Source of the DNA: Propionibacteriales bacterium
GTDB taxonomy: Bacteria; Actinomycetota; Actinomycetes; Propionibacteriales; Nocardioidaceae
Direction of reading: 5' to 3'
NCBI GenBank assembly: GCA_026392415.1
Contig: JAPLCC010000040.1
Span: 32,998 to 96,997 of the forward strand
Length of the DNA stretch: 64,000 nucleotides
Shown here: piece after piece, positions 22,987 to 28,667 of the stretch
How positions within the stretch are numbered: the first letter of the stretch is position 1
Layout of the letters: each line of letters begins with the position of its first letter
Program-made: the position numbers and the translations under genes
Notes under the pieces: model-generated
Databases searched by the model: none
What the model saw: only the letters and a program-made list of their open reading frames with translations
Told to the model about the DNA's origin: nothing

Positions 22987-24429
22987 ATGGACTACAAGGT
23001 TGCTGACCTGAGCCTGGCCGAGTTCGGCCGCAAGGAGCTCACCCTCGCCGAGCACGAGATGCCCGGCCTCGTTTCGCTGCGGACGTCGTACGGCGACGCC
23101 CAGCCGCTGAAGGGCGCCCGGATCGCCGGCTCCCTGCACATGACCATCCAGACCGGTGTGCTCATCGAGACCCTGGTCTCCCTCGGCGCCGACGTGCGCT
23201 GGGCGACCTGCAACATCTTCTCGACCCAGGACCACGCGGCCGCCGCGGTCGTCGTCGGCCCCAACGGCACCGTCGACAACCCGCAGGGCACCCCCGTCTT
23301 CGCCTGGAAGGGCGAGTCGCTGGAGGAGTACTGGGACGAGGCCGAGAAGGTCTTCGACTTCAAGGACGAGGCGGGCAACCTGATCGGCCCGAACATGCTC
23401 CTCGACGACGGCGGCGACATCACGCTGCTCGTCCACAAGGGCGTCGAGTTCGAGAAGGCCGGCGCTGTCCCCGGACAGGACTCGACCGACAACGAGGAGT
23501 ACAAGGAGGTCCTCCGGGTCCTCGCTCGTTCGCTCGAGAACAACCCGACGCGCTGGACCAACATCGCCAACAACATCAAGGGCGTCTCCGAGGAGACCAC
23601 CACCGGTGTGCTGCGCCTGTACGACCGCTTCAAGGAGGGCTCGCTCCTCTTCCCGGCGATCAACGTCAACGACTCGGTCACCAAGTCGAAGTTCGACAAC
23701 AAGTACGGCTGCCGGCACTCGCTGATCGACGGCATCAACCGCGGCACCGACGTCATGATCGGCGGCAAGGTTGCCGTCGTGTGTGGCTACGGCGACGTCG
23801 GCAAGGGCTCGGCCGAGTCGCTCCGCGGCCAGGGCGCCCGCGTCATCATCACCGAGATCGACCCGATCTGCGCGCTGCAGGCAGCGATGGACGGCTACGA
23901 GGTCAAGCGCCTCGAGACCGTCGTCGAGTACGCCGACATCTTCATCACCACGACCGGAAACTTCGACATCATCACCGTCGACCACTTCCAGAAGATGAAG
24001 CACCAGGCCATCGTCGGCAACATCGGCCACTTCGACAACGAGATCAACATGGCCGGTCTGGCCAAGATCCCGGGCATCGTGAAGGACGAGATCAAGCCGC
24101 AGGTCCACCAGTGGATCTTCGAGGACGGCAAGAAGGTCATCGTGCTGTCCGAGGGCCGTCTGCTCAACCTCGGTAACGCGACCGGCCACCCGTCGTTCGT
24201 CATGTCGAACTCCTTCACCAACCAGGTGCTCGCCCAGATCGAGCTCTTCACCAAGATCGAGGAGTACCCCGTCGGCGTCTACGTGCTGCCGAAGCACCTC
24301 GACGAGGAGGTCGCCCGTCTCCACCTCGACGCCCTCGGTGTCGAGCTGACGATCCTCACCCAGGAGCAGGCCGACTACCTCGGCGTTCCGGTCGAGGGTC
24401 CGTTCAAGTCGGACGCCTACCGCTACTGA
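22987..24429 (+). CDS. ahcY: Adenosylhomocysteinase
   Basis: [70 protein letters not shown]-terminal PFKSDAYRY. Confidence 0.98.
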
Positions 24430-24443
24430 GTTCACGGTCAGGG

Positions 24444-24468
24444 GCCCCGCACCGACTCGGTGCGGGGC
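24444..24468 (+). terminator. Rho-independent-type terminator hairpin after ahcY
   Basis: GCCCCGCACCGA-c-TCGGTGCGGGGC perfect inverted repeat, 15 bp after the ahcY stop. Confidence 0.8.
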
Positions 24469-24499
24469 TTCTGCCATGTTCACACCTAGGATCTTGTAC

Positions 24500-25210
24500 A
24501 TGACCCCCTCCGCCGGCACGACGTCGTACCCCACCCGGGGACGCGTGCTCGTCGTCGACGACGACGCACCCCTGGCGGAGATGCTCAGCATCGTCCTGTC
24601 CCAAGAGGGCTTCGAGAGCCGCGTGTGTCCCCGCGGGGACCTCGCACTGGCCGACTTCCGTGACTACCGGCCCGACCTGGTCCTGCTCGACCTGATGCTG
24701 CCCGGCAAGGACGGCATCGACGTCTGCAAGGAGATCCGGGCCGAGTCCGGCGTGCCGATCGTGATGCTGACGGCCAAGGGCGACACCGTCGACGTGGTGG
24801 TCGGGCTCGAATCAGGCGCCGACGACTACGTCGTGAAGCCGTTCAAGCCCAAGTAGCTCGTCGCCCGCATCCGCGCCCGGGTACGCCGTACCGACGGAGT
24901 GCCGCAGGAGACCTTGACGATCAAGAACCTCGAGATCGACGTCGCCGGCCACTCGGTCATCCGCGACGGGGTCGAGATCTTCCTGACCCCGCTGGAGTTC
25001 GACCTGCTGCTGTGCCTGGCCCGCAAGCCGGGCCAGGTCTTCACCCGGCAGCTCCTGCTCGAAGAGGTCTGGGGCTACCACCACGCCGCCGACACCCGTC
25101 TGGTCAACGTCCACGTCCAGCGGTTGCGGTCGAAGGTGGAGCACGATCCGGAGCACCCGGAGATCGTCCTGACCGTTCGTGGAGTCGGCTACAAGGCCGG
25201 CTCGGCCTAG
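24500..25210 (+). pseudogene. mtrA: MtrA-type response regulator interrupted by an in-frame TAG (24854-24856) between receiver and wHTH domains
   Basis: Frame 24500-25210 is continuous except one TAG: ...VLVVDDDAPLAEML...DYVVKPFKPK*LVARIRARVRRTDG...LTPLEFDLLLCLARKPGQVFTRQLLLEEVWGYHHAADTRLVNVHVQRLRSKVE; followed by mtrB and lpqB. Confidence 0.9.
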
Positions 25211-25224
25211 GCCGACCGACGGCG

Positions 25225-26925
25225 ATGAGCGGAACCGACCGATCCCTGTGGCTGCGCAGCCTGTGGGCCCGCGTCGTGCCGGAGGTACGCCGCGGGCTGA
25301 CCTTCTGGCGTCGGTCGATCCAGGCTCGCGTCGTGATCAGCACGGTGGTGCTGTCGGCGGTGATCGTCAGTGGTGTCGGCTGGATCCTGCTGCAACAGAC
25401 GCGGCAGGGACTGCTCGAGCACCGGGTCGACGTGGTGCTCGGGGAGGTCGACGCCGAGGTCACCGATGCCCGTGACCGGCTGGCCGCTGCATCCGGGACC
25501 GAGGTCAACGCGAGCCGGCAGCAACGCGACCTCGTCGACCCGATCATCGAGCGTGGACTGAGCCGCGGCTACAGCGTCGTGCTCGGCGGCCCCGAGGGGG
25601 AGGACCTGCCGTTGAGCGAGGGTGGCGGGGAGTACACCAGCGGCCTCGACCTGGCCAGCGTGCCGGAGAGCCTCGAGGCGCACTTCGACGGCGTCAACCG
25701 GGCGACCGCCTGGACCTACACCGACATCGTGCGCGACGACGGCGGTGGAGGCGAGGTCAGTTCGGAGGCCGGGATCATCGTCGGCGCCCAGATGCCGTTG
25801 CCCTCCGACGGCAAGACCTACACGCTCTACTTCCTCTTCCCGTTGACCGAGGAGGAGGAGACCCTGGGCCTGGTGACGCGGGCCCTGCTGACCGCAGCCG
25901 GTCTGCTGCTCGTGCTTGTCGCTGCGCTGACCGGCCTGGTGACGCGCCAGGTGGTCACCCCGATCCGGATGGCACGTCGCGTCGCCGAGCGACTGGCCTC
26001 CGGGCGGTTGCAGGAGCGGCTCCAGGTCCGTGGTGAGGACGACATCGCCCGTCTGGCGTACTCCTTCAACCAGATGGCCACGAACCTGCAGCGGCAGATC
26101 CGTCAGCTCGAGGAGCTCAGCTGGGTCCAGCGTCGCTTCGTGTCCGACGTGTCCCACGAGCTGCGTACGCCGCTCACCACGGTGCGGATGGCGTCCGACG
26201 TCCTCCACGACGCCCGCGACGGGTTCGATCCGACGACGGCGCGCTCGGCCGAGCTCCTGCAGGCCGAGCTGGACCGCTTCGAGAACCTGCTCGTCGACCT
26301 CCTCGAGATCAGCCGCTTCGACGCCGGCGCCGCGATGCTCGCGACCGAGGACGTCAACCTCGTCGAGATCGCCGAGCGGGTGATCGCGGCTGCGCAACCG
26401 CTGGCCGACCAGCGCGGCGTCCGGGTCGTGATCGAGAACCCCGACGACGAGGTGCGTGCCGAGGTCGACGTACGACGGGTCGAGCGCATCGTGCGCAACC
26501 TGGTCACCAATGCGATCGACCACGCGATGGCCGACGACCCGACGGAATCGGTCATCGTCCAGCTGGCGTCCGACGCGGACGCGGCCGCGATCACCGTGCG
26601 TGACCACGGCATCGGCCTCGCGCCCGGCGAGGCCGCGATGGTGTTCAACCGCTTCTGGCGATCGGACCCGGCGCGCGCCCGCACCAGCGGGGGCACCGGG
26701 CTCGGTCTCGCCATCGCCCAGGAGGACGCCCACCTGCACGGCGGCTGGCTGCAGGCGTGGGGCCGGACCGGCCAGGGCGCCCAGTTCCGGCTCACCGTGC
26801 CGCGGTACGCCGGTGCGACCCTGCGCAACAGCCCACTCCCGCTGGTGCCCGAGGACGCAGCGTCCAGCGATGCCGGCGTCGTCACCGGGCCGGTCGCGGT
26901 CCCGACCCCGGACGGCGCCCGATGA
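25225..26925 (+). CDS. mtrB: MtrB-type sensor histidine kinase
   Basis: Two TMs, HAMP, H-box FVSDVSHELRTPLTTVRMASDVL, N-box RNLVTNAIDHAM, GTGLGLAIAQEDAHLHGG; frame intact. Confidence 0.95.
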   Translation: MSGTDRSLWLRSLWARVVPEVRRGLTFWRRSIQARVVISTVVLSAVIVSGVGWILLQQTRQGLLEHRVDVVLGEVDAEVTDARDRLAAASGTEVNASRQQRDLVDPIIERGLSRGYSVVLGGPEGEDLPLSEGGGEYTSGLDLASVPESLEAHFDGVNRATAWTYTDIVRDDGGGGEVSSEAGIIVGAQMPLPSDGKTYTLYFLFPLTEEEETLGLVTRALLTAAGLLLVLVAALTGLVTRQVVTPIRMARRVAERLASGRLQERLQVRGEDDIARLAYSFNQMATNLQRQIRQLEELSWVQRRFVSDVSHELRTPLTTVRMASDVLHDARDGFDPTTARSAELLQAELDRFENLLVDLLEISRFDAGAAMLATEDVNLVEIAERVIAAAQPLADQRGVRVVIENPDDEVRAEVDVRRVERIVRNLVTNAIDHAMADDPTESVIVQLASDADAAAITVRDHGIGLAPGEAAMVFNRFWRSDPARARTSGGTGLGLAIAQEDAHLHGGWLQAWGRTGQGAQFRLTVPRYAGATLRNSPLPLVPEDAASSDAGVVTGPVAVPTPDGAR

Positions 26926-28667
26926 GCCGGCACACGGTCGTGATCCGGCTGCTGGTCGGTCTGGTGCTCGCCGTGCTCCTCGGCGGCTGTGTCGCCCTGC
27001 CGACCGAGGGACCGGTCGTCGAGCGCAACCTCACCGATGCGGAGGACGCCCGACAGGCGAGCGACATCGATGCGCGCCCCCCGATCAAGGGTGCTTCGCG
27101 CACCGAGGTGGTCAGCGGGTTCCTCGACGCGATGACGGCGTGGCCGATCCAGACCAGCATCGCCAAGAAGTACCTCACGGACGCTGCCGCGGCGCAGTGG
27201 AACCCTGAGCGGGAAACCATCGTCTACGGCGACACCCTGCCCGTGCGCGAGGTCGGCGGCGCGGTGTCGGTCGAGCTGACGGCAGCCGACAGCCTGGACG
27301 CCGTGGGCGGGTGGCGCGGGCCGATGCCGGCCGACCAGCTCACCATGGACTTCCGGGTCACCGTCGAGGACGGCGAGTACCGCATCGCCGACCCCCAGGA
27401 CGCACTGGTCGTCCCGGCGACGTGGTTCCAGCAGCGCTACCGCCAGGTCTCGCTCTACTACTTCGACCCGCTCGCCCAGATCCTCGTCCCGGAGCCGGTG
27501 TTCGTGCCGGAGGGTGACCAGCTCGCCACCAGCCTGGTGTCGGGCCTGCTGGCCGGACCGCCACCGTTGTCGCGTGGCGTGGTCCGTTCCTTCCTGCCCT
27601 CGGGTCTCAGCGTCGGCCTGTCGGTGCCCGTCGACAAGAACGGGGTCGCGCAGATCACTCTCCTCGGCGACGCCCCGAAGGTGACCACGGAGGAGGCCGA
27701 GCTCATGCTCGCCCAGCTGGCGTGGACCCTGCGCCAGGACGGCGACATCACGGCCCTGCGGGTCACCGTCGGCGGCTTCGACCTGCCGCTGCCCGGCGGC
27801 GCGTCGCAGTACCCGGTCACCGGCGGCCAGGTGTTCGACCCGGCCGGCGGCCAGGCCTCGACCCTGCTCTTCGGACTCTCCCGCGGACGACTCATCTGGG
27901 GCACGCCCGGGAACCTCGTCCCGGCGACCGGTCCCTTCGGCGACGCCGCGGCCGGAGTCGTCGCCGTTTCGGCACGGCTCGACGCAGAACGGGTCGCCGT
28001 TGTCGATCGCGGCGGCAGCCGGGTCCGGATCGGTCCGGTCCGCCAGACGGCCAACGACGTCCCCACCCGGACCGTGCTGAGCGGCGGCACCTACGCACGA
28101 CCCTCTTGGGACGCTTCCGGTCGTCTGTGGGTCCTGGAGCGTCGGAGCTCCGGCGCGGTGGTGTGGCTCGTCGAAGGCACCCGGGTCCGTCAGGTCCGGG
28201 TTCCCGGGGTGACGGGCGAACGCGCCCAGCAGCTGATGGTCTCGCGTGACGGCACGCGTCTGGTGGCTGTGGTGCGCACCGGTCGGGGCGACGAGGTCGT
28301 GGCCGCCCGGGTCGTCATCAACGGTGGCGGCGGGGTCGCGCGCGCCCGTTCGGCGTACGTCGTCCACGCGGCCGCCGGCGGGCGGATCATCGACATGACG
28401 TGGACCAGCCCCATCCGGATCGGCCTGCTGACGCCCACCGCGCCGGGCGCCCTCTCCGAGGTCGACGTCGTCGCGGCCGACGGCGCGACCGTCGGCGTCG
28501 ACGAGCTCTCGACCGTCGTGTCGGGCGAGTTGATCGGCCTGGCCGGGTCAGCGACCGAGGGCTCGCCGCTGCTCGCCGTCTACGCCGACCGCTACGTCGA
28601 CATCGTCGCTCAGGACGAGTACGACGCGGGGACCGCGATGCTCGGACAGCTCGACTACGCCGGCTAG
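26922..28667 (+). CDS. lpqB: LpqB family lipoprotein (GerMN domain)
   Basis: Lipobox VLLGGC, PTEGPVVERNLTDAEDARQ, GerMN-like region LVSGLLAGPPPLSRGVVRSFLP; overlaps mtrB. Confidence 0.93.
   Translation: MSRHTVVIRLLVGLVLAVLLGGCVALPTEGPVVERNLTDAEDARQASDIDARPPIKGASRTEVVSGFLDAMTAWPIQTSIAKKYLTDAAAAQWNPERETIVYGDTLPVREVGGAVSVELTAADSLDAVGGWRGPMPADQLTMDFRVTVEDGEYRIADPQDALVVPATWFQQRYRQVSLYYFDPLAQILVPEPVFVPEGDQLATSLVSGLLAGPPPLSRGVVRSFLPSGLSVGLSVPVDKNGVAQITLLGDAPKVTTEEAELMLAQLAWTLRQDGDITALRVTVGGFDLPLPGGASQYPVTGGQVFDPAGGQASTLLFGLSRGRLIWGTPGNLVPATGPFGDAAAGVVAVSARLDAERVAVVDRGGSRVRIGPVRQTANDVPTRTVLSGGTYARPSWDASGRLWVLERRSSGAVVWLVEGTRVRQVRVPGVTGERAQQLMVSRDGTRLVAVVRTGRGDEVVAARVVINGGGGVARARSAYVVHAAAGGRIIDMTWTSPIRIGLLTPTAPGALSEVDVVAADGATVGVDELSTVVSGELIGLAGSATEGSPLLAVYADRYVDIVAQDEYDAGTAMLGQLDYAG

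Follow-up and report, generated by a model that had tools for sequence, protein, structure and literature searches.

An in-frame TAG in an otherwise conserved Nocardioides mtrA, probably a very recent single-base lesion or a base error

Organization of the mtrA locus

The window, a stretch of 64,000 nucleotides analyzed as a whole, comes from a Nocardioides-type draft genome (60 contigs, 4.19 Mb), whose nearest named match is N. carbamazepini. It carries the response regulator gene mtrA followed by mtrB and lpqB. The features of the locus, in window coordinates, are listed below.

24488..24493, + strand: TAGGAT, a -10-like element 6 nt before ATG 24500, in a CTAGGATC block common to the closest sister genome (G161)
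24500..24853, + strand: mtrA codons 1-118, the receiver up to β5 and the first α5 residues (PF00072, 1-103 of 111 positions)
24854..24856, + strand: in-frame TAG at residue 119, within receiver helix α5; it takes the place of a conserved Glu codon
24857..25210, + strand: mtrA codons 120-236 and its own TAG terminator, covering the remaining α5, the linker and a complete winged helix-turn-helix (wHTH) domain (PF00486)
24899..24901, + strand: possible restart GTG, codon 134, without Shine-Dalgarno (SD) pairing; GTG is also present in 10 other Nocardioides mtrA genes
24914..24916, + strand: possible restart TTG, codon 139, exclusive to this genome (1 of 53), with AGGAG at 24906-24910 upstream at a spacing of 3 nt
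25225..26925, + strand: mtrB sensor kinase gene, intact, ATG start, beginning 14 nt past the mtrA stop
26922..28667, + strand: lpqB, intact, open from ATG 26922, in an ATGA overlap with the mtrB stop

The mtrA frame runs from ATG 24500 to TAG 25208-25210 with a lone internal TAG, codon 119 of 237, as the initial annotation had described. Its further statement that no frameshift is present holds for the window, to which our frameshift check was confined: mtrA stays in one frame over 24500-25210. When the frame is read through, the receiver model PF00072 scores 98.5 bits, and the stop cuts this match to 103 of 111 positions. The downstream half retains a complete wHTH, as previously proposed, matching PF00486 (Trans_reg_C, C-terminal winged helix) with 92-95 bits over profile positions 3-76 of 77. 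A regulator of the MtrA / OmpR-PhoB type would be expected as one uninterrupted polypeptide; this frame is broken by TAG at codon 119. The N-terminal part shares 97% amino acid identity with the nearest sister. The read-through protein also resembles Mycobacterium tuberculosis MtrA, a member of the OmpR/PhoB family (2gwr, 3nhz), with a phmmer E-value of 7e-101 to 2gwr over residues 13-234, and the operon order mtrA-mtrB-lpqB is the same; the Nocardioides gene differs by its one in-frame stop at the conserved α5 Glu.

The two downstream genes are intact and overlapping, in agreement with the initial annotation. MtrB contains HAMP, HisKA and HATPase_c domains, and the name lpqB is taken from gene position and from that annotation. 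A search of the genome for a second full mtrA, which had been recommended, returned no better copy: the next OmpR-type match (locus L002) is 68% identical at the DNA level over 535 bp and 48.6% identical as protein. Relatives of the MtrA C-terminal half were also sought in viral contigs, and none was found.

Upstream of mtrA, the placement of the TAGGAT element suggests that the mRNA may be leaderless; a consensus promoter scan did not call this element. The interval 24443-24500 also holds a perfect 10-bp GC hairpin, GCCCCGCACC-GACTC-GGTGCGGGGC, located after sahH (which ends at 24429) and before TAGGAT.

Position of the stop within the receiver

The stop had been placed exactly between the receiver and DNA-binding domains, and this proved wrong. 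Codon 119 lies inside the last receiver helix, as the PF00072 receiver model extends to residue 125 and residues 13-132 of our query are matched by 3nhz, the MtrA receiver construct that was crystallised. In an AlphaFold2 model with the stop read as Glu (mean pLDDT 76.5; 74-84 in the α5 region), helix α5 comprises residues 117-127, and the stop is thus predicted to remove nearly all of it. This helix packs on the receiver core and is part of the α4-β5-α5 face. Counting from the DDY motif, residue 119 appears to correspond to Glu107 of RegX3, which belongs to the α4-α5 pair used in PhoB, TorR and YycF dimers (PMC4511772). Because the stop falls inside α5 at a conserved Glu, truncation would leave the receiver damaged.

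Distribution of the stop among relatives

Comparison with sister genomes, one of the checks suggested at the outset, covered 53 distinct Nocardioides mtrA genes. The codon is GAG in all 52 others and TAG in this genome alone, which bears out the proposal of a single GAG to TAG substitution. Eighty further actinobacterial loci have GAG or GAA at this codon, with one GTG exception and zero stops. The TAG junction pattern was found in 1 of 220 genus genomes, namely the window's own, and in 0 of the 219 others. Similarly, in all 57 other genus genomes detected via the receiver half, the stop-to-stop frame spans 234 codons or more. By this alignment the stop site is not chance noise, since every compared MtrA but one has Glu at this codon.

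Selection on the two halves of mtrA

Relative to the closest sister (G161), dN/dS of mtrA is 0.031 upstream of the stop and 0.065 downstream. Upstream of the stop, 8 synonymous changes and 1 nonsynonymous change are polarised to this branch. The downstream counts are 13 and 3 by single sites, which become 14 and 2 after correction at codon 139, because TTG versus CTC is a synonymous Leu change. The two halves do not differ in the ratio of synonymous to nonsynonymous changes (Fisher p = 1). Neutral evolution after the stop over more than ~15% of the branch leading from the nearest sisters is rejected at the 5% level, and the neighboring mtrB, with a dN/dS of 0.09, has no sign of decay. Strong purifying selection thus acted on each half up to very recent times, and the lesion is therefore either very recent or an error.

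Use of UAG as a stop codon

Release factor RF1 is present and intact in this genome. None of the 51 tRNA matches in the genome has a CUA anticodon; the single match missed by ARAGORN has the anticodon UCC by position. No PylS was found. TAG terminates mtrA itself and likewise its sisters, and it terminates 48 of the 257 coding-like ORFs sampled. The signs of stop-codon recoding that we looked for in this genome (a CUA tRNA, pyl genes or a missing RF1) are absent. With RF1 intact, neither a CUA tRNA nor PylS found, and TAG in normal use, UAG is an ordinary stop here.

Among the tRNA genes, one with the anticodon UAA that was called Leu (L159:167-242; G000:C46:19916-19989) has only 76 nt and lacks the long variable arm that a tRNA-Leu should have.

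Other lesions and assembly quality

Comparison of the window with four relatives revealed no other conserved gene that is interrupted, and the remaining stops flagged there lie in antisense frames or upstream of a true start. We also scanned 464 kb for coding potential, consisting of the window and 400 kb from two other contigs (two 200-kb stretches); mtrA was the single clear case, with the limit that the scan is blind to stops with a start codon ~7 codons away or closer. The TAG site is located mid-contig, with no assembly break nearby. The assembly is therefore not generally bad, and a single wrong base is still compatible with these results.

Four weaker interrupted-gene candidates from the search were rejected as pairs of unrelated ordinary neighboring genes.

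We found no 16S rRNA gene in the 4.19-Mb assembly, while 21 of the 31 genomes searched (the relatives and this one) gave one. A metagenome bin is a possible origin of the draft; the missing 16S is a weak hint of this, because 10 of the 31 genomes, this one included, likewise lack it.

Origin of the in-frame stop

The locus is very probably an ordinary Nocardioides mtrA in which one base has very recently changed from G to T to give a nonsense codon, either by mutation or as a base error, as judged from sequence comparison. If the stop is real, translation would start at ATG 24500 and terminate at UAG 24854 via RF1, giving a 118-residue receiver without helix α5. The DNA-binding half would essentially not be made; mtrB and lpqB would persist, and MtrA output would presumably be lost. 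The initial annotation had listed four options, of which base-call error and recent loss both stand. The pattern of selection rules out a loss of older date: under neutrality along the entire branch, ~38 nonsynonymous changes would be expected downstream of the stop and only 2 are observed, so that, with the stop itself as the sole point in its favor, an old pseudogene is almost certainly not the explanation.

For a base error in the consensus, with mtrA uninterrupted in the organism, we see close to an even chance. The change is a single substitution, neither side has decayed, the stop is unique to this genome, and in this draft of 60 contigs no 16S was found, which is common for metagenome bins, although a third of the genomes searched share that lack. 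G to T is the change that oxidised guanine typically yields. Against an error stand the mid-contig position and the lack of a rash of further nonsense lesions in the window or the additional 400 kb. A real, very recent nonsense mutation leading to a null or nearly null mtrA, for instance one from isolation or culture, is backed by the identical sequence evidence and is a serious possibility, if a somewhat less probable one. We lean slightly towards the error, since so constrained a regulator should be costly to lose and M. tuberculosis cannot do without MtrA (PMC5487470). A real loss is nevertheless possible because mtrA is dispensable in some actinobacteria: it is non-essential in Corynebacterium glutamicum, and a mutant of Streptomyces coelicolor has been reported (PMC5487470). 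The title of PMC5650626 also indicates that loss of mtrA is tolerated in some actinobacteria.

The remaining readings take the stop to be real and fixed, with MtrA made either in two separate pieces or through leaky reading of UAG, and with the TTG restart supplying a free constitutive wHTH; on the sequence evidence this is very unlikely. A split gene, in which a receiver-only protein and a separate wHTH from TTG 24914 or GTG 24899 would both be functional, is improbable. The wHTH half is complete and conserved, and the new TTG at codon 139, located where the wHTH begins and downstream of AGGAG, gives a small hint, the sole positive one. However, AGGAG and TTG are 3 nt apart, and AGGAG itself belongs to Gln-Glu codons that the closest sister also has. 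The earlier suggestion of two polypeptides starting from GTG 24899 is unlikely because that codon has no SD pairing, as had already been remarked, and because the N-terminal piece would lack α5, leaving one of the two halves short of a complete domain. Selection on both halves is no argument for a split, since it predates the stop.

Programmed or tolerated UAG readthrough into full-length MtrA is the least likely of these. Conservation does run on past the stop, and in-frame stops with maintained selection are known in prokaryotes (PMC7918605); these resemble the mtrA case in that a single nonsense substitution is flanked by conserved sequence on both sides. They differ in being shared by two or more species, whereas the mtrA stop is common to no relative, and a stop in a single genome would there count as a possible artefact. 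No positive evidence emerged for the readthrough that the initial annotation had considered: neither an amber suppressor tRNA nor PylS was found in the genome, RF1 is intact, and the RNA structure downstream of the stop is not unusual (z = +0.66).

No observation points to a new type of split or recoded gene. Should the stop be real, this organism would offer a naturally mtrA-null actinobacterium that keeps mtrB and lpqB intact, useful for learning what Nocardioides needs MtrA for. If it is an error, the case is merely a caution on single-base calls in draft genomes. Neither outcome alters our knowledge of gene expression.

A tRNA-like gene beside an orphan ORF

While seeking suppressor tRNAs, we met a tRNA-like gene (G000:C7:198481-198552) that lies ~33 nt upstream of an orphan ORF of 747 aa. 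The coordinates are as follows.

G000:C7:198481-200826 (L244:6482-8830; L163:182-253): tRNA-like gene and 747-aa ORF; homologues in L247-L276

The tRNA-like gene scores 47 bits against the Rfam tRNA model and is uncalled by ARAGORN; its D loop lacks GG, and its T loop lacks TTCGA. The 747-aa ORF has no relative in Pfam, NCBIfam, PADLOC or PDB, and its homologues (37-55% identity) have a patchy distribution, occurring in 32 of 397 genomes of the order. As far as the sequences indicate, RNA and protein look like a conserved pair in which one loop varies; the pair seems more interesting than the mtrA stop and merits its own study. About 28 of the 30 loci that we read carry a single tRNA-like gene or two of them just upstream of the ORF homologue. 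The tRNA-like body is conserved across these loci and the anticodon-loop insert varies, being TCCT, ATGG, AGGA, CTGG, GTAG, CTTC, AGGG, GCTT, TCGG, CTCA, CAGG or TCTC, or only 2-3 bases.
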